Source: a virus. From it: a stretch of DNA of 33,259 nt. The stretch is from positions 1 to 33,259 of IMG/VR virus record IMGVR_UViG_3300006868_000051; one strand, given 5' to 3'. Below are positions 12,580 through 33,035 of this stretch, in pieces. A program made the position numbers and the translations under genes. Position 1 is the first letter of the stretch, and each line of letters begins with the position of its first letter. The notes below the pieces were generated by a model. The model ran no database searches. It was given only the letters and a program-made list of their open reading frames with translations, and had not been told where the DNA came from.

Positions 12580-14691
12580 ATGTCTGACATCAGGTTTAAT
12601 AATTGGTATCACCAATCTGGAACTGGCGGAGTTTATCAGGACGGTTCTGGGAATATTGGCATTGGAACTTCTGTGCCAACTTCAAACCTTGATGTTGCGG
12701 GAACTGTAACTGCTACGACTTTTAGTGGTAACCTGACTGGCAACCTGAGTGGTAATGTAACTGCAAATCAGATTACTGTTGGTGATAGTTTTATAAGACC
12801 AACAAGTATTGGAATAGGTGCGACTGATACCACAGGACGGAATGCTGGTGTTGGAACTGCTGTTGGAACTCTTATATTCAATGCGTCTACCAATATGGTT
12901 CAGGGATATGGACCAGAGGGTTGGGTTGATGTTAAGTCATTGGTCAAGTCTGGACTTTCTGCTACTGGTGGAATCATCAGTGAATATGAAGATTCTGGTA
13001 TAGCGTATAGAGCACACGTATTTACTTCATCAGGAACCTTTAATGTAACACAACTTTCTGAGGATTTTGCTAATAATGTTGACTATCTTGTGGTCGCAGG
13101 CGGCGGCGGTGGTGGTGGAAAAAGAGGTGGTGGTGGTGGTGCTGGCGGATTTAAATATGTAACTGGATCTCCCGTAGATATACAGTCATATTCAGTTGTT
13201 GTTGGTGGTGGGGGTAGGGGAAATCAATCTCCAGAGGGTGCTAATGCTGCACCAAATGGTAGCAATTCATCATTTAATGGAACAACATCTAGTGGTGGTG
13301 GCGGTGGTGGATCATGTGATCCAGCTGGAACTAGTTCGACTGGTGGTTCTGGTGGTTCAGGTGGCGGTGGTTCTGGTCAAGGAACAACAAATGCTGATGG
13401 TGGTGCAGGAACAGCACTAGAAGGCAATCCAGGATTTAAGGCAGAAGCTTCACCAGGAACTGCTGGTGGTGGAGGTGGTGCTGGTACTGGGGGACCAATT
13501 ACAACGATATCAAAAAATGGTGGTAATGGTTTAGCGAATGCTATTACTGGAACATCAATAACTTATGCTGGCGGCGGAGGTGGTGGTGCCGTACCAGGAG
13601 AAGGTACTGGTGCTGGAACAGGTGGAACTGGTGGTGGTGGTGATGGTCGTAATGATGGTGGATTTTTTGGATATTCTGGCACTGCTGGATTAGGTGGCGG
13701 TGGCGGTGGCGGACCTAGTAATGATACTCAAGGAGGTCACGGTGGTTCAGGTACAGTTATTATCAGATATAAAATCGGATTAAATCAAACAGGAACTGCA
13801 AAAGCAACTGGCGGAAATATAAGTTTTTATGATAGCAAAACCATTCATACCTTTACAAATACTGGAACTTTTGTAAATACTTCAGGATCTCCACTTTCTA
13901 TCGAATATGTTGTTGTTGCTGGTGGTGGTGGCGGCGGCGGAAATATTGGTGGCGGTGGAGGTGCCGGTGGATATCAAACTGGATCTACTACTTGCCCAAC
14001 AAGTCCCGTAACTGTAACTGTTGGTGCTGGAGGTAATGGTGGACCTCAATCACCCGACGGTCTTTCTGGATCTGATGGATCGGCGGGAGGTCTAAGTGGA
14101 GCATTAACCGTTCCTGTTGCTGGTGGTGGTTATGGTGGAAAAGGTGGCGGAGCTGCTGCAAACGGTAATCCTGGCGGTTCTGGTGGTGGAGGAGGAGGAT
14201 ATAACGCAACTTCTGCGGGGACGGGAATTGGTGGTCCTCCAAGACAAGGTTATAATGGTGGTGGTGCTGCTTCATATGGAGGAGTAGGTGCAGGTGCAGG
14301 CGGCGGCGGAGGTGCTGGTGGAGTAGGAGAATCAAATACTGGAAACGCACCTGCTGGCGATGGAGGTCTTGGAGTTCAAATTCCTGCAACGTTTAGAGAT
14401 CCAAAATCAACTGTTGGATTCCCTGGTCCATCTGGAACTTATTGGGTTGCTGGTGGAGGAGGAGGAGGAAGATATGATCCTGCCACAGGAAATGGAACTG
14501 GTGGTTCAGGTCCATCAGGTGGTGGACCATATGCAGGAGCAGGAAATGGTGCTTTACAGAATACTGCTGGGGATGATGCTTTAGCAAACTCTGGAAGTGG
14601 AGGTGGTGGAGGAGGTTCTTATTCTGGACAACCAGCAAAAAGTGGTGGTTCTGGTGGTTCTGGCATTGTCATTATCTCCTATCCAACCTGA
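12580..14691 (+). CDS. Glycine-rich tail fibre / adhesin protein 3 (703 aa)
   Basis: The N-terminus differs (MSDIRFNNWYHQSGTGGVYQ) and leads into IGIGTSVPTSNLDVAGTV, then TATTFSGNLTGNLSGNVTAN, then NQITVGDSF and PTSIGIGATDTTGR, which repeats the shaft of glycine-rich protein 1. Two glycine-rich domains follow, opened by NVDYLVVAGGGGGGG and IEYVVVAGGGGGGG, and closed by GGSGTVIIRYKIG and GGSGIVIISYPT. The mixture of a fibre-repeat N-terminus with the domains of its neighbours shows modular assembly. Its own late promoter and the downstream small chaperone-like gene make it a separate expression unit. Confidence 0.88.
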   Translation: MSDIRFNNWYHQSGTGGVYQDGSGNIGIGTSVPTSNLDVAGTVTATTFSGNLTGNLSGNVTANQITVGDSFIRPTSIGIGATDTTGRNAGVGTAVGTLIFNASTNMVQGYGPEGWVDVKSLVKSGLSATGGIISEYEDSGIAYRAHVFTSSGTFNVTQLSEDFANNVDYLVVAGGGGGGGKRGGGGGAGGFKYVTGSPVDIQSYSVVVGGGGRGNQSPEGANAAPNGSNSSFNGTTSSGGGGGGSCDPAGTSSTGGSGGSGGGGSGQGTTNADGGAGTALEGNPGFKAEASPGTAGGGGGAGTGGPITTISKNGGNGLANAITGTSITYAGGGGGGAVPGEGTGAGTGGTGGGGDGRNDGGFFGYSGTAGLGGGGGGGPSNDTQGGHGGSGTVIIRYKIGLNQTGTAKATGGNISFYDSKTIHTFTNTGTFVNTSGSPLSIEYVVVAGGGGGGGNIGGGGGAGGYQTGSTTCPTSPVTVTVGAGGNGGPQSPDGLSGSDGSAGGLSGALTVPVAGGGYGGKGGGAAANGNPGGSGGGGGGYNATSAGTGIGGPPRQGYNGGGAASYGGVGAGAGGGGGAGGVGESNTGNAPAGDGGLGVQIPATFRDPKSTVGFPGPSGTYWVAGGGGGGRYDPATGNGTGGSGPSGGGPYAGAGNGALQNTAGDDALANSGSGGGGGGSYSGQPAKSGGSGGSGIVIISYPT

Positions 14692-14697
14692 TAAATA
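14690..14697 (+). promoter_or_regulatory. T4-like late promoter motif (GATAAATA) in a stop codon
   Basis: It overlaps TGA 14689-14691 and ends 26 nt before the ATG at 14724. The usual downstream CTAAAAA element is missing. Confidence 0.7.
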
Positions 14698-14723: not shown

Positions 14724-15092
14724 ATGGCATACAGAAAGTTCAAGGGTAAGCAGTACCCTATTCCTGGTGTAGACACCGCAATCAATACACTTCGTCCAGG
14801 TTCTCGTTGGGACCTATCAAACACTACTTTCACAAGATTTGAAGACGATCAAGGTAGGGAAGCACCAACGTGGGAAGAAATTCAAGCAGAAGTTGAAAGA
14901 GAAGTAGATATCTACAACTACTTCCTTTACGAAAGAAACAGACAAGAAGCATATCCCGATTGGAGAGACCAACTTGATATGTTGTATCAAGATATTAAGT
15001 CTGGTAATCTAGCAGATGGTAGTTGGGTTGCTGCTATCGATAAAGTAAAGGAAGCACACCCCAAACCCGAAGGTCCAGAACCCGAACTCTGA
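14724..15092 (+). CDS. Small acidic protein, probable fibre-assembly chaperone-like (122 aa)
   Basis: Residues ~20-55 (AINTLRPGSRWDL, then APTWEEIQAEVERE) correspond to the N-terminal part of the proteins at 21886 and 31170. Residues ~68-90 carry the YERNRQEAYPDWRDQLDMLY motif seen in many small phage proteins encoded beside tail fibres. The protein is strongly acidic and has no enzyme motif. It follows the third glycine-rich fibre, so a cognate assembly role is plausible but inferred. No Shine-Dalgarno sequence is visible; the start is the first ATG after the promoter. Confidence 0.78.
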   Translation: MAYRKFKGKQYPIPGVDTAINTLRPGSRWDLSNTTFTRFEDDQGREAPTWEEIQAEVEREVDIYNYFLYERNRQEAYPDWRDQLDMLYQDIKSGNLADGSWVAAIDKVKEAHPKPEGPEPEL

Positions 15093-15163: not shown

Positions 15164-15192
15164 TTGACTGTTGGGGCACATTCAACTATAAT
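15164..15192 (+). promoter_or_regulatory. Near-consensus sigma70 promoter for the oxygenase operon
   Basis: TTGACT (15164-15169) is followed after exactly 17 nt by TATAAT (15187-15192). This is the host-type promoter that cyanophage early genes use, unlike the late NATAAATA motif elsewhere in the window. It is placed 22 nt before the ATG at 15215. Confidence 0.78.
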
Positions 15193-15214
15193 AAACTGAA
15201 ACTAGTACTCAATT

Positions 15215-15832
15215 ATGGCGTATCTGACTTGTTGGCATATGACTAATTTGCCGACTGAAATTGTAGAAATCATAGAAAAAGACGTTCAAACATTTGATGC
15301 AGTTGCACAAGACTCCCAGATTATGGGAGAGCAAGTAGATAAAGTAATCCGTAATAGTAAGAACGCTTGGATTCCTACCTCGCACTGGATCGGCGGTTGG
15401 TTGTGGTATTACATCGATAAGATTAACAGAGAGAACTTCTGTTATGACTTATATGATATTGATGGTGGTAGTATTCAATATACTCAATATGGTGAAGGAC
15501 AGTTTTATAACTGGCACCAAGATGCTGATATCGATACTTTCTACAAACCACAATTGGTTCCTAGTTCTGGCACCAATTTGAGTCAAGACCAAGTTACACT
15601 GCAAGGTGAGACTGTAAGAAAACTGTCTTTTGCAGTTCAACTCTCTGATCCTAGTGACTACACTGGCGGAGAAGTTCAGTTCCTTGATAATAGTGGCAAG
15701 ACATACTTTGCACCTAAACAGCGTGGAACTCTGATGGTATTTGACTCACGCACTAAGCACCGTGTTCGTCGTGTTCGCTCTGGTATGCGTAAGAGTCTTG
15801 TTGGTTGGGTTGTTGGTCCGAGGTGGAAGTGA
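15215..15832 (+). CDS. 2OG-Fe(II) oxygenase, prolyl-4-hydroxylase-like (205 aa)
   Basis: The core of the double-stranded beta-helix fold is visible: QYGEGQFYNWHQDAD with the iron ligands H101 and D103, a strand LSFAVQLSDPSDYTGGEVQF, and DSRTKHRVRRVRSGMRKSL, where H182 is the third ligand and R192 would bind 2-oxoglutarate. The length is normal for phage oxygenases of this type. These enzymes hydroxylate proteins, nucleic acids or small molecules with O2 and 2-oxoglutarate; the substrate is unknown. It is the first gene of a three-gene set whose stops and starts overlap. It has a sigma70-type promoter and no clear Shine-Dalgarno sequence. Confidence 0.88.
   Translation: MAYLTCWHMTNLPTEIVEIIEKDVQTFDAVAQDSQIMGEQVDKVIRNSKNAWIPTSHWIGGWLWYYIDKINRENFCYDLYDIDGGSIQYTQYGEGQFYNWHQDADIDTFYKPQLVPSSGTNLSQDQVTLQGETVRKLSFAVQLSDPSDYTGGEVQFLDNSGKTYFAPKQRGTLMVFDSRTKHRVRRVRSGMRKSLVGWVVGPRWK
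15820..15826 (+). promoter_or_regulatory. Ribosome binding site (GAGGTGG) deciding the start at 15832
   Basis: GAGGTGG lies 5 nt before the ATG at 15832, inside the end of the upstream gene. It supports that start over an in-frame ATG at 15805. Confidence 0.6.
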
Positions 15833-16542
15833 TGAAAGAGTTTGTATCAACTGGTGGTGTTTATGAAGAGGGATATCAGAAATGTGCTACTCCAACTACC
15901 ACCAATATGAGTAAGAATGAGTCTTTTGAGAAGAATGGTTATCTTGCTCTTCCAGGACTTATTGCAGATCCTCAAAATCTTTACTGCGACCCTCCACTAG
16001 ATGAGAATGGTAATCGTCTGACAGGTCAGATGAACTATATCCGTAAGGATAAGTACACTTATATTCCTGATGAGAAGCAGGTGAACGGTTCATTGGCACG
16101 ATATAATGTGCCGATGTATAAGCAACTTCATTATCTTGTTCGTAAGGAAGTGGAGAAGCGTCTTGGTATGGACTTGCTTCCTACTTACTTCTATGACAGA
16201 TTCTATTATGTCGGACAACAACTGAAGCGTCATAGTGACCGACCTGCTTGTGAAGTTAGTGTTACTCTTCAAATTAGCACCAACTCTGAGAATCCTTGGC
16301 CTATTTGGTTCGAGCGTCCTGATGGTAGTGAGTCTTACGTTCTAATGAAGAATGGGGATGCTGCTGTCTATAAGGGTTGTGAGCGTGAGCACTGGCGTGA
16401 TCCTCTACAATCCAAATACAGTGGACTGGAAAGAAAGTGGCGTAGTTGGAGTAAGAAAGAAGACGATACTTATCACCATCAAATCTTCCTTCACTATGTA
16501 AACTCACAAGGTCCTTTTGTTCATCACGCTAACGACAGATAA
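15832..16542 (+). CDS. 2OG-Fe(II) oxygenase-like protein (236 aa)
   Basis: Start chosen at ATG 15832, overlapping the previous TGA as TGATG, because GAGGTGG lies just upstream; an in-frame ATG at 15805 would need a 28-nt overlap. Numbered from this start, QQLKRHSDRPACEVSVTLQI supplies H134 and D136. GDAAVYKGCEREHWRD supplies the probable third ligand H187 and a nearby arginine, and HHQIFLHYV closes the fold. An N-terminal FEKNGYLALPGLI segment is typical of phytanoyl- and prolyl-hydroxylase-like enzymes. The substrate is unknown. It ends in TAATG, overlapping the next gene. Confidence 0.82.
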   Translation: MKEFVSTGGVYEEGYQKCATPTTTNMSKNESFEKNGYLALPGLIADPQNLYCDPPLDENGNRLTGQMNYIRKDKYTYIPDEKQVNGSLARYNVPMYKQLHYLVRKEVEKRLGMDLLPTYFYDRFYYVGQQLKRHSDRPACEVSVTLQISTNSENPWPIWFERPDGSESYVLMKNGDAAVYKGCEREHWRDPLQSKYSGLERKWRSWSKKEDDTYHHQIFLHYVNSQGPFVHHANDR

Positions 16543-17075
16543 TGTTGAATCTATTGTTCTATGTGCCTCTCTATTCTTATGAGGTGAAAGAGTGGGATAG
16601 AAAGAAAAAAGCACTTCTTTCTAGAATCAATAGAAGTGACTTTGGATATCACGGTCTGAATACCTTTCAGACCGATAGACACACCAAGAAGAACAGATAC
16701 TCTCTTGACTTTGAGGGTATCTTTTCTGAGGAGTTGGAAGAGTTTAAGAAGGAAGCAAACTTAGAGTATCTCCGAGTAATGGATATTTGGACTCTAAAAT
16801 ATACCAAGAAGACGGAAAACCACTGTCCCCACAATCATCGGTCTATTGGTTACACTGGACTGATGTATCTTGAATATGATGAAAAGGTTCATACACCGAC
16901 CAAGTTCATTGGACCGTGGAATGACCCAGTATCAGACACAACTAACATTGCATCGATACCAGAACCGAAAGAAGGAGTGATGTATATTTGGCCAAGTGTA
17001 TTAGTGCATTATGCCGATGCAATGCAGACAAATAAGTTGCGTATGATAACCTCTTGGGATATGGAAGTGCGATAA
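16542..17075 (+). CDS. Divergent 2OG-Fe(II) oxygenase-like protein with an HNH motif (177 aa)
   Basis: The C-terminal half shows HCPHNHRSIGYTGLMYLEY (H97, H99), a VHTPTKFIGPWND stretch, and MYIWPSVLVHYADAMQTNKL, with H156 and R167 as the expected distal ligand and 2-oxoglutarate contact. This pattern belongs to the 2OG-Fe(II) oxygenase type common in marine phages. The first ligand pair reads H-N-H rather than the usual H-x-D, so iron binding could be unusual or altered. Translation is coupled to the upstream gene (TAATG). The N-terminus (MLNLLFYVPLYSYEVKEW) is slightly hydrophobic but has no clear signal peptide. The function is unknown. Confidence 0.75.
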   Translation: MLNLLFYVPLYSYEVKEWDRKKKALLSRINRSDFGYHGLNTFQTDRHTKKNRYSLDFEGIFSEELEEFKKEANLEYLRVMDIWTLKYTKKTENHCPHNHRSIGYTGLMYLEYDEKVHTPTKFIGPWNDPVSDTTNIASIPEPKEGVMYIWPSVLVHYADAMQTNKLRMITSWDMEVR

Positions 17076-17078
17076 ATA
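17071..17078 (+). promoter_or_regulatory. T4-like late promoter motif (GATAAATA) in a stop codon
   Basis: It contains the TAA stop of the third oxygenase (17073-17075) and ends 20 nt before the ATG at 17099. It restarts late transcription after the oxygenase island. Confidence 0.72.
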
Positions 17079-18775: not shown

Positions 18776-19066
18776 ATGATTTCATCCGAGAGATATCAGC
18801 AAATACTTGTAGAAGATATTGCAAGAATGAATGTCAATGCAGCAAGATCTTCAGAAGAATCAGGACCAGTTCCTACTTCCGAAGATGATATGAATTGGTT
18901 GAGAAGTGAACGAGATAGAAGAATTTCTGAGACTGATTGGACTCAATTGCCCGATGTTCCAGAAGCAACTAAAATTGCATGGCAAACATATAGACAAGAA
19001 CTGAGAGATGTTCCTCAAAACTATACTAATATGTTAGATGTTGTTTGGCCAACTAAACCTTCCTAG
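18776..19066 (+). CDS. Phage tail assembly chaperone-like protein (96 aa)
   Basis: Residues ~45-96 fit the small phage tail assembly chaperone family (Pfam Phage_tail_APC type): SERDRRISETDWTQLPDV, then WQTYRQELRDVPQNY and a terminal VVWPTKPS. The N-terminal half, SERYQQILVEDIARMNVNAA, is a helical acidic stretch without a known motif. It lies 13 nt after a fibre gene with an AGGGAG ribosome site, so it is likely the cognate assembly factor (inference). A second protein with the same C-terminal domain is encoded at 31170. Confidence 0.85.
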   Translation: MISSERYQQILVEDIARMNVNAARSSEESGPVPTSEDDMNWLRSERDRRISETDWTQLPDVPEATKIAWQTYRQELRDVPQNYTNMLDVVWPTKPS

Positions 19067-21262: not shown

Positions 21263-21889
21263 ATGACAGTCAGAGCAAATAAACCAGCATTTAATATAAG
21301 AGAAAAGTTAAAGGAACTTGATTACTCTCACGTTCCTTATGATAAGATGCCATTAGGTTCTTGCATTGGTTCTGCTTTCTATCATAGTTCAAATACTGGT
21401 GTTGATAATTATACTATCGATGTTGGAAACTCTAATAATGGATATGTAATAGATCCTACATTTACATATTATAAGAGAGATCCAAATAGTATTTTGTATG
21501 TTGAATTTCAATTTAGTATTGGAGATCCAGAAGGATATTGGAGAGAAAACATACTTTTTGACCACACACAAGAAAATGCGTATACCGTTGATACCATTAT
21601 TACTAATGGTGGTGCTGATGCTCAAGCAAATTCTTCTGATAATAGTTTAGTGGAATCACAAAAAGCGGTTGGCGTTATTTCTGGATATGTTGTGGGTGCA
21701 AATGCTTCAAGTGGAGTGACCTCTGGTGATAATCACTACATAGCTAGAAATCGCAGTGGTTTTATTCACCATTCAAGTAATTTTGTAAGTATATGTATGA
21801 CTATTGGTACTGACAGTGGTAACACTCTTCTTATAAGAGATGACCGTTATTATTCACCAAAAGCATATGTTATGGAGTTCCTACAATGA
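21263..21889 (+). CDS. Fibre-associated virion protein (208 aa)
   Basis: The N-terminus has MTVRANKPAFNIREKLKELD and then YDKMPLGSCIG, the NKPAFNIREKL leader being familiar from cyanophage and pelagiphage structural proteins. The remainder is beta-rich, with a repeat-free, aromatic-rich C-terminal half (YIARNRSGFIHHSS, SICMTIGTDSGN) that suggests a small head domain. No enzyme motif is apparent. It lies 3 nt after the large fibre gene and overlaps the next, chaperone-like gene by 4 nt (ATGA), which implies joint expression and perhaps a shared fibre complex. Confidence 0.78.
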   Translation: MTVRANKPAFNIREKLKELDYSHVPYDKMPLGSCIGSAFYHSSNTGVDNYTIDVGNSNNGYVIDPTFTYYKRDPNSILYVEFQFSIGDPEGYWRENILFDHTQENAYTVDTIITNGGADAQANSSDNSLVESQKAVGVISGYVVGANASSGVTSGDNHYIARNRSGFIHHSSNFVSICMTIGTDSGNTLLIRDDRYYSPKAYVMEFLQ

Positions 21890-22257
21890 ATTATTACAGT
21901 AAAGCATTAAAACAATTAGCACCCGATGGAGTTGGGTGGGTAGTCAAAGGACAAAATCATAAGTGGTTGACCGAAGTTTCTGATGATATAATTTTACCAA
22001 CCGAAGAAGAAATCGTCCAGAAGGTTGCCGAACTAGAATATCAAGAAGAAGTCAACGAGTATCAGAGACAACGTGCTGCTGAATACCCTTCTTATGCTGA
22101 CCAGTTTGACCAAATCTATCACGAAGGTGTAGATGCCTGGAAGGCAACCGTCCAAGCAGTCAAAGATAAGTATCCAAAGCAAGTGATGGAACCCGAAGTT
22201 CTTGAAGAAAGAAAGAGGCTGGCATTGGCAGATTTAGAAGCAAGTAGGGAATCGTAA
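21886..22257 (+). CDS. Small acidic fibre-chaperone-like protein with YPSYADQFD domain (123 aa)
   Basis: Residues 5-55 (ALKQLAPDGVGWVVKG, then PTEEEIVQKVAELE) match the N-terminal part of the 125-aa protein at 31170. The C-terminal part differs: YQRQRAAEYPSYADQFDQIY, related to the 122-aa protein at 14724, then DAWKATVQAVKDKYP. It is acidic and probably helical. It overlaps the preceding fibre-associated gene by 4 nt. A chaperone or assembly-factor role is inferred from its domain and neighbours; the exact target is unknown. Confidence 0.8.
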   Translation: MNYYSKALKQLAPDGVGWVVKGQNHKWLTEVSDDIILPTEEEIVQKVAELEYQEEVNEYQRQRAAEYPSYADQFDQIYHEGVDAWKATVQAVKDKYPKQVMEPEVLEERKRLALADLEASRES

Positions 22258-23459: not shown

Positions 23460-23732
23460 ATGGATTATACTATCACTTTAACAGAAGCACAACGCAAGGC
23501 AATGGAGTACGTTGCTGTTGATGTTGATACTTGGATTACTAATGCTGCCGAAGTTAGAGCAAATACTGCGATTGATAAAATTTGCTCCATCTATACAACA
23601 TATAAGTTAGATCGTAATGAACCCATTACTGCTGTTGGTAAAGCAGCAATGGTAGATGCTGCATATGCTGAGGGTGTAATTCAAACTGTTGCTCAAAGAA
23701 ACGCTGGTATTTCAACAGCAGCTGGTTCCTGA
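23460..23732 (+). CDS. Small conserved helical phage protein (90 aa)
   Basis: The sequence begins MDYTITLTEAQRKAMEYVAV and continues with VDTWITNAAEVRANTAIDKI, a mostly helical protein with a C-terminal GVIQTVAQRNAGIST segment. I recognise the style as a conserved small protein of marine T4-like phages, but its role is unknown. It follows a fibre gene, fitting the local pattern of a fibre followed by a small partner, although here the partner has its own late promoter. No Shine-Dalgarno sequence is visible. Confidence 0.82.
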   Translation: MDYTITLTEAQRKAMEYVAVDVDTWITNAAEVRANTAIDKICSIYTTYKLDRNEPITAVGKAAMVDAAYAEGVIQTVAQRNAGISTAAGS

Positions 23733-29955: not shown

Positions 29956-30246
29956 ATGGCACTTACTGAAAGATGCGAAAACGACAAGATTGAAGTTGTC
30001 GGACAATACAAAGCAGTCCAAGTTCGCTGTGCGACTGTGATTGAAAGAGATGGTGTAGAAGTCACCCGTTCATTCCACCGTCACGTTCTTCATCCTGGTA
30101 CTCTTGGAGAAGGTAATGTTCTGGTAGATACTGACCTTTCTGGTGAAGATGCGGACGTGCAAGCAATCTGCACTGCTGCCTGGACAGATGCAGTCAAAGA
30201 AGCGTGGAGACAGAAGTTAGTTGCTGACGCTGAAGCAACACCATAA
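29956..30246 (+). CDS. Small conserved phage protein (96 aa), possible fibre partner
   Basis: It has the opening MALTERCENDKIEVVGQYKA and the central TVIERDGVEVTRSFHRHVLH segment typical of a conserved small protein found in diverse phages, ending with a helical part (AICTAAWTDAVKEAWRQKLV). The function is not established, and no catalytic motif is evident. It lies after a fibre gene, as the other small partners do. A clear GGAGGA ribosome site precedes the ATG, unlike at most genes here. Confidence 0.85.
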   Translation: MALTERCENDKIEVVGQYKAVQVRCATVIERDGVEVTRSFHRHVLHPGTLGEGNVLVDTDLSGEDADVQAICTAAWTDAVKEAWRQKLVADAEATP

Positions 30247-31169: not shown

Positions 31170-31547
31170 ATGAAATACGATATTCCATCAGCACTACAAA
31201 AACTCACACCAGGAGCAGAATGGGTTCTGCGTGGTGGTGAGTATTCTGGTTTGGAGTGGATTAGAGGAAACGGATACGAGAAACCAACCGAAGAAGAAAT
31301 TACCGCAAAGATTGCCGAACTGGAAGCAGAAGAACCAGTAAGACTTCTACGTATTGAGAGAGACAAGAGACTCGCAGCAACTGACTGGAAAGTTGTAAAG
31401 GCAAAGGAGACTGGTACAAACCTTTCTGCCGACTTCAAGGCATACCGTCAGGCACTTCGTGACCTTCCTTCTACGGCGACTCCTACGCTGAATGAGATGG
31501 GAGACCTTGACCTTTCTTCTGTTACTTGGCCCACCGAACCTGCTTGA
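31170..31547 (+). CDS. Phage tail assembly chaperone-like protein with hybrid domain plan (125 aa)
   Basis: Residues 7-55 (SALQKLTPGAEWVLRGGEYS, then KPTEEEITAKIAELE) match the N-terminal part of the 123-aa protein at 21886. Residues ~60-125 (IERDKRLAATDWKVVKAK, AYRQALRDLPSTATP, VTWPTEPA) fit the tail assembly chaperone family and match the 96-aa protein at 18776. So this gene is a hybrid of two local domain types. It follows the C1q-like gene, in the usual fibre-then-partner order. The next gene's ATG lies in the TGATAAATG after the stop. Confidence 0.86.
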   Translation: MKYDIPSALQKLTPGAEWVLRGGEYSGLEWIRGNGYEKPTEEEITAKIAELEAEEPVRLLRIERDKRLAATDWKVVKAKETGTNLSADFKAYRQALRDLPSTATPTLNEMGDLDLSSVTWPTEPA

Positions 31548-32747: not shown

Positions 32748-32776
32748 TTGACTTATAAGTAGATTTGTTTTATGAT
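32748..32776 (+). promoter_or_regulatory. Sigma70-like promoter for glutaredoxin, with an overlapping dyad
   Basis: TTGACT (32748-32753), then 17 nt, then TATGAT (32771-32776). The -35 overlaps a GTCAAG-C-CTTGAC inverted repeat at 32740-32752, which could be an operator. The predicted start is close to the ATG at 32799. Confidence 0.65.
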
Positions 32777-32798
32777 AATTTCTATCTAACTATTTTCT

Positions 32799-33035
32799 AT
32801 GAAATTTTTAGTATATTCAAAAACAGGATGTCCTTATTGCACTAAGGTAATGACAGTCTTGGAAATGACTGGTAAGAAATTTGTTGAGTATAAACTTGAC
32901 AGAGACTTTACACGGCAAGAGTTTTATGATACATTTGGGGAGGGTTCTACATTCCCACAAGTTTTATGTGATGATAAAAAGATAGGAGGATGCGTTGACA
33001 CCATTCAGTTTCTCAGAGAAGAAAAAGTTATCTAA
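32799..33035 (+). CDS. Glutaredoxin (78 aa)
   Basis: The active site CPYC is at residues 11-14, the cis-proline motif TFPQV at 51-55 and the glutathione-contact GGCVD at 63-67, in a full-length thioredoxin fold of the usual glutaredoxin size. It would use glutathione to reduce disulfides, for example in phage ribonucleotide reductase. It is soluble, with no signal sequence. It has a separate sigma70-like promoter and no Shine-Dalgarno site, so it is not part of the late fibre unit. Cyanophages commonly encode such a glutaredoxin, and T4 has nrdC in an analogous role. Confidence 0.93.
   Translation: MKFLVYSKTGCPYCTKVMTVLEMTGKKFVEYKLDRDFTRQEFYDTFGEGSTFPQVLCDDKKIGGCVDTIQFLREEKVI

Follow-up and report, generated by a model that had tools for sequence, protein, structure and literature searches.

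Few accessory genes are as common in marine cyanophages as those for 2OG-Fe(II) oxygenases. The closest described counterparts of the three-gene cassette analyzed here are found in the isolates Bellamy (genes 46-48) and S-SM2 (SSM2_035-038), in which the same three families occur in the same order, behind the same promoter architecture, either inside the fibre cluster or at its end. S-SM2 differs in that a fourth 2OG gene (GC180) is inserted, and Bellamy in that a further 2OG gene lies just upstream; the proteins of our cassette are 42-59% identical to their counterparts in these two phages. Coupled 2OG oxygenases that include a relative of our gene 2 are also found near tail or structural genes in the pelagiphages HTVC008M, HTVC023P and Mosig, but these clusters have a different order and membership, and the gene 2 relative is only 28-30% identical. 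Among host enzymes, the PiuC/PKHD-type hydroxylases (3dkq, 9ghl), which are encoded outside fibre clusters, show a weak sequence match to the C-terminal half of gene 1, which falls below their NCBIfam equivalog cut-offs (44 bits versus 143); 3dkq also fits the predicted fold of gene 2 (Z 13.4).

The gene 2 family is known in the literature under another name. The label goes back at least as far as the description of T4-GC615 as "Hyp. with ferrochetalase domain" (PMC3037559), and has since served in arguments for haem-related auxiliary genes of pelagiphages and for seasonal enrichment (PMC9599517, PMC11561400). The phage ferrochelatase has further been reported to be always adjoined by a 2OG oxygenase (PMC9599517). 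With respect to transcription, cyanomyoviruses lack alt, modA/B, motA and asiA, and it has been proposed that their early genes are transcribed via host sigma70, their late genes via NATAAATA and their middle genes perhaps via both (PMC2984593).

The window, i.e. the whole stretch of DNA analyzed here, is a virus contig from IMG/VR and comprises 33,259 bases. The locus is also present in a 65-kb contig of the same collection, with 100% identical proteins, and a near-identity DNA search across phage records returned no match to the window. Its fibre-like products, its ATAAATA late promoters and every relative that was found place it among the T4-like cyanophages (Kyanoviridae). The features relevant to the cassette are the following:

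12580-14691, + strand: glycine-rich fibre-like protein, neighbour of the cassette (PF21722, PHROG 2295)
14691-14697, + strand: ATAAATA late-type promoter 5' of the ORF 14724-15092, from which late transcripts may run on into the cassette
15164-15192, + strand: sigma70-type promoter TTGACT-N17-TATAAT, exact sequence, with an architecture conserved in homologues
15193-15214, + strand: leader, the 22 nt that separate the -10 box from the start codon; CTGA(A/G)-N-ATTAT in relatives, degenerate here
15215-15832, + strand: gene 1, predicted 2OG-Fe(II) oxygenase (PF13640, PHROG 61, T4-GC412, PiuC/PKHD-like)
15832-16542, + strand: gene 2, predicted 2OG-Fe(II) dioxygenase-fold protein (PHROG 2954, T4-GC615; "ferrochelatase" in PHROG 2954 and RefSeq)
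16542-17075, + strand: gene 3, predicted member of a 2OG-Fe(II) oxygenase family (PF13759, PHROG 81, GC155-like)
17072-17078, + strand: ATAAATA late-type promoter that overlaps the gene 3 stop codon and belongs to the fibre gene that follows
32748-33035, + strand: glutaredoxin-like gene (32799-33035) with TTGACT-N17-TATGAT (32748-32776)
14724-15092, 18776-19066, 21886-22257, 23460-23732, 29956-30246 and 31170-31547: chaperone-like small proteins, by inspection

The small ORFs in the last line alternate with the fibre genes and resemble tail-fibre assembly chaperones; the first of them (14724-15092) matched only PHROGs of unknown function.

The layout put forward in the initial annotation was borne out. 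Three oxygenase-like proteins are encoded (genes 1 and 3 recognized by Pfam, gene 2 by its predicted fold and the residues of its active site), they are translationally coupled through the overlaps TGATG (15830-15834, genes 1 and 2) and TAATG (16540-16544, genes 2 and 3), and gene 1 is preceded by TTGACT at 15164, a spacer of 17 and a TATAAT ending at 15192. The claim that neighbouring genes use late promoters also holds, with ATAAATA standing ahead of other genes of the fibre cluster: it occurs 18 times in the window, always on the + strand, against 11.2 occurrences expected by chance over both strands, and 15 of the 18 lie just 5' of an ORF in the ORF list, most of them preceding fibre genes. 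A scan of the window found none directly before gene 1, the nearest being at 14691 upstream and the next at 17072. The window also has no detectable terminator-like hairpin between the ATAAATA at 14691 and gene 1, and late read-through into the cassette from this site is possible. The view that a coupled trio is in itself notable fared less well on comparison, as the same trio occurs in S-SM2 and Bellamy and the pelagiphages have comparable multi-gene versions. The cassette is real, conserved and independently promoted, and similar ones are known from cyanophages and pelagiphages that have been sequenced.

Gene 1 is predicted to belong to the 2OG-Fe(II) oxygenase superfamily on account of its Pfam domain (PF13640, 52.2 bits against a cut-off of 27; PHROG 61, 1.9e-35) and its HxD...H...R motif, with H101, D103, H182 and R192 invariant in 20 sequences. 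Gene 3 matches PF13759 (30.9 bits against a cut-off of 27) and PHROG 81 (1.5e-23). In its divergent relatives H97, H99 and H156 are invariant and R167 nearly so, and its predicted metal site has the form HxH...H rather than the textbook HxD; its AlphaFold model (pLDDT 55) was too poor for use. Sequence searches of the PDB with genes 2 and 3 gave insignificant matches only.

Gene 2 gave no match in a Pfam search, but is matched by PHROG 2954 (3.5e-57). An AlphaFold model built from 32 relatives has a mean pLDDT of 89.6, and the top of its Foldseek list is made up of 2OG dioxygenases throughout, among them AlkB, a Pseudomonas prolyl-4-hydroxylase, FtmOx1 and EctD. On realignment the best folds were SnoN (Z 15.1, 170 residues, rmsd 3.1), PHD2 (Z 14.3) and P4H (Z 14.0), the matches spanning about 160-170 residues at about 3 A. 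The modelled structure hence corresponds to the double-stranded beta-helix of the 2OG dioxygenases. H134, D136 and H187, the putative Fe-binding HxD...H, are invariant in the 32 sequences and in 15 more divergent ones, and are retained even in comparison with the pelagiphage and S-PM2 "ferrochelatases" at 28-33% identity. R123 and R189 are also invariant and are candidate 2OG anchors; the last strand has no conserved Arg or Lys. A comparison of sequence profiles found no significant similarity between the gene 1 and gene 2 families, and the assignment of gene 2 therefore rests on structure and motif. The ferrochelatase domain proper, PF00762, was detected neither in gene 2 or its 32 homologues nor in 19 cyanophage genomes, whereas 8 of 14 control genomes gave a match.

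The name ferrochelatase for the family of gene 2 (PHROG 2954/T4-GC615) accordingly looks wrong, judging from its predicted fold and conserved residues. This mis-naming is the main surprise of the analysis, the phage "ferrochelatase" resembling in its model a 2OG dioxygenase. The constant presence of a 2OG oxygenase beside it would then be explained by the two genes being an oxygenase pair. If the family is indeed one of oxygenases, published conclusions on phage haem and iron metabolism and on the seasonal enrichment of ferrochelatase need rewording. The predicted 2OG-Fe(II) dioxygenase fold and HxD...H, with no PF00762 similarity, were also noted across PHROG 2954, PHROG 3531 and T4-GC615 (L365, L366, L367 and L369).

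The promoter cannot be separated from chance on a single sequence. The site before gene 1 is the sole exact TTGACN-N15-19-TATAAT of the whole window, but 25 of 100 shuffled sequences also yield one, and the region contains about as many sigma70-like sites as chance would give (38 observed versus 36). Its significance comes instead from the comparison of relatives. A sigma70 promoter with at least 11 of the 12 consensus bases, placed 22-30 nt before the start codon, precedes 26 of 33 non-redundant gene 1 homologues as against 3 of 293 control ORFs from the same contigs, with the proviso that the homologues share ancestry and so do not count as independent events. Conversely, an exact scan of the 60 nt that precede each annotated match start found ATAAATA in none of the 33 homologues versus 75 of the 293 controls. 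The cassette can hence be classed, by its sequence features, as a sigma70-type transcription unit of cyanophages, with TTGACA-N17-TATAAT upstream and free of ATAAATA; the same promoter architecture is seen at the cassettes of S-SM2 and Bellamy.

Several individual relatives are instructive in this regard. One related contig (L006) matches the window at 90.9% DNA identity starting at the start codon of gene 1; the DNA upstream is unalignable, and again has a sigma70 promoter, as does the window. Most differences between the two cassettes fall at third codon positions, and computation shows the cassette to be under purifying selection. Strong terminators lie directly 5' of the -35 box in L013, L014, L016, L017, L021 and L044. 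In P-RSM4, S-SSM5, S-CAM8, ACG-2014b, ACG-2014g and S-RIM50 the preceding gene is read in the opposite direction, and the pair must therefore have a promoter of its own, the canonical boxes being weaker in these phages. Exceptions were also encountered: L035 has an upstream late-type ATAAATA and no sigma70 site, which makes it a late-type exception if an alternative start is used, and L038 has neither. In L042 (5001-7833) the gene 1-gene 2 pair is tandemly duplicated, the second copy having a late-type ATAAATA.

Relatives also have a leader motif in common, CTGA(A/G)-N-ATTAT, which lies in the stretch separating the -10 box from the gene 1 start codon. Searching blindly and strictly for the -10 box plus this motif recovered 17 distinct stretches that also have a -35 box; 13 of them lie ahead of gene 1 homologues and one more ahead of a truncated copy. 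In contig IMGVR_UViG_3300031787_000469 (L270) a second, truncated gene 1 with an intact promoter stands before an unrelated 324-aa gene. The motif listings of a first, looser search were discarded, being mostly chance among the matches listed. The motif was not seen as a general element of S-SM2 early genes, and an Rfam search of the leader gave no match; a RegA-like operator may be a candidate for it.

The order gene 1-gene 2 is kept in all 44 loci and isolates examined, with one ORF intervening in L028-L031. This intervening ORF (L028:5664-6320) is a NUMOD3-type homing endonuclease (PHROG 314). By this comparison the pair is a conserved module and gene 3 an optional addition. L013 has a second PF13759 gene between genes 2 and 3, L014, L016 and L021 have an ORF of like size in the same place, and in L017 and L043 gene 3 is reduced to a remnant.

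A glutaredoxin gene lies directly after the cassette, or one gene away, in at least 11 related contigs; in the window it is found 15.7 kb downstream. The simplest reading of these arrangements is that the cassette sat at a border between late and early genes, beyond which about 15.7 kb of fibre genes now extend, and a gain of fibre genes here and a loss elsewhere would both be compatible with it. The presence of a host-type promoter inside the fibre region would be explained by this former border. Random placement in related genomes, which had been named as a potential refutation, is not what we observe, the cassette being non-randomly placed. The argument that its position favours a role in fibre modification carries less weight than at first sight, as many relatives have the cassette at the border between the fibre cluster and an early-type gene.

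Our preferred reading, which as a whole we give roughly an even chance, is a self-contained trio of 2OG-Fe(II) oxygenases with its own host-sigma70 promoter and coupled translation at a former late/early border, acting on proteins made by the phage. Within it, the order of the genes, their coupling, the conservation of the promoter, the 2OG-dioxygenase fold and HxD...H of gene 2 and the purifying selection are computational results, while the hydroxylation of phage proteins is inferred from them. The cassette probably tailors proteins, perhaps fibres, rather than contributing to haem synthesis, and fibre or tail proteins are tentatively its likeliest substrate, at a little under even chances. 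The enzymes would consume O2 and 2-oxoglutarate in hydroxylating side chains on proteins that the phage makes, of which the neighbouring fibre and tail proteins would be the likeliest targets; oxygenases made from the start of infection would be on hand when the late fibres are made. Consistent with this, glycine-rich ORFs are found within 5 kb of the cassette in nearly all relatives with enough flank, and in Sf-CH11, where the pair is elsewhere in the genome, near gp13, two Gly_rich_2 matches flank it. The co-occurrence with glycine-rich fibres suggested as a test was not discriminating, PF21722 being present in 8 of 10 phages with the pair and 6 of 9 without it; PF21722 searches of S-SM2 and S-MbCM6, both of which have the pair, gave no match. 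A fibre substrate is made less certain by the ancestral border, which accounts for part of the positional evidence, and a sigma70 promoter would equally suit an early host target. The HxH of gene 3 in place of HxD, its poor model and the missing conserved Arg or Lys on the last strand of gene 2 also weigh against the preferred reading. The conserved, independently promoted pair beside fibre genes makes the question of its substrate directly testable in the existing isolates Bellamy and S-SM2.

The strongest competing explanation, possible but clearly less probable, is an early modification of the host, with the trio hydroxylating a host protein of the translation or transcription machinery, or RNA, and its position among fibre genes being a relic of the border. 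It draws on the conserved sigma70 promoter, a promoter type shared by early-type 5' ends in S-SM2 (for example before gp55 and hli), on the adjoining or nearby early-type glutaredoxin gene in at least 11 contigs, and on the match of the gene 2 fold to P4H of Pseudomonas putida, a prolyl-4-hydroxylase crystallized with EF-Tu. However, the association with tail and fibre genes recurs at differing genome positions and in pelagiphages, and L035 and the second copy in L042 carry the late-type ATAAATA instead. The initial annotation had taken the promoter type to favour an early action on host protein or nucleic acid, but the promoter leaves the substrate unsettled: since combined early and late promoters have been proposed for the middle genes of cyanomyoviruses (PMC2984593), a sigma70 site does not by itself confine expression to the early phase, and L035 is late-type. 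"Sigma70-type" is hence a safer label for this promoter than "early-only".

A metabolic role, in which the enzymes draw on 2OG or have some small molecule as their substrate and thereby shift 2OG/NtcA nitrogen signalling, was proposed for cyanophage 2OG oxygenases in 2010 (PMC3037559) and would accord with the many copies per genome (PMC9602691), but it is doubtful, as turnover of 2OG needs no set of different, coupled and conserved active sites in a fixed order beside fibre genes. AlkB-like repair or modification of nucleic acids is more improbable still: DNA repair has been suggested for cyanophage 2OG proteins (PMC3037559) and AlkB chains top the Foldseek list of gene 2, but these alignments have a TM of about 0.4 and an rmsd of about 9, SnoN, PHD2 and P4H come first after realignment, and the cassette has no DNA genes. 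That gene 2 is a ferrochelatase which provides the oxygenases beside it with haem or iron, as its PHROG and RefSeq names and the published reading for pelagiphages have it (PMC9599517, PMC11561400), is scarcely credible in the face of the missing PF00762 and the predicted 2OG barrel with its invariant HxD...H, and haem supply would be needless, as 2OG oxygenases require no haem.

Returning to fibre and tail proteins as the preferred substrate, several relatives have enzymes acting on hydroxyls, indoles or sugars beside the cassette: a NolO-type carbamoyltransferase, a Trp halogenase, a radical SAM/SPASM protein or glycosyltransferases. A broader and rather unlikely extension, which we offer as speculation, is that PHROG 2954/T4-GC615 is an unrecognized 2OG-dioxygenase family paired with a PiuC-like oxygenase within a fibre-tailoring island that decorates glycine-rich receptor-binding proteins, and that this island also takes in the carbamoyltransferases, halogenases, radical SAM enzymes and glycosyltransferases sharing the slot. 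Carbamoyltransferase and Trp halogenase were considered as obligate partners of the cassette and rejected, since they adjoin it in some phages and lie elsewhere in others, which amounts to a tendency only. In Syn9 (NC_008296, about 30600-35900) the glycine-rich genes are immediately followed by two genes for tryptophan halogenases, a type of position that the oxygenases occupy in other phages.
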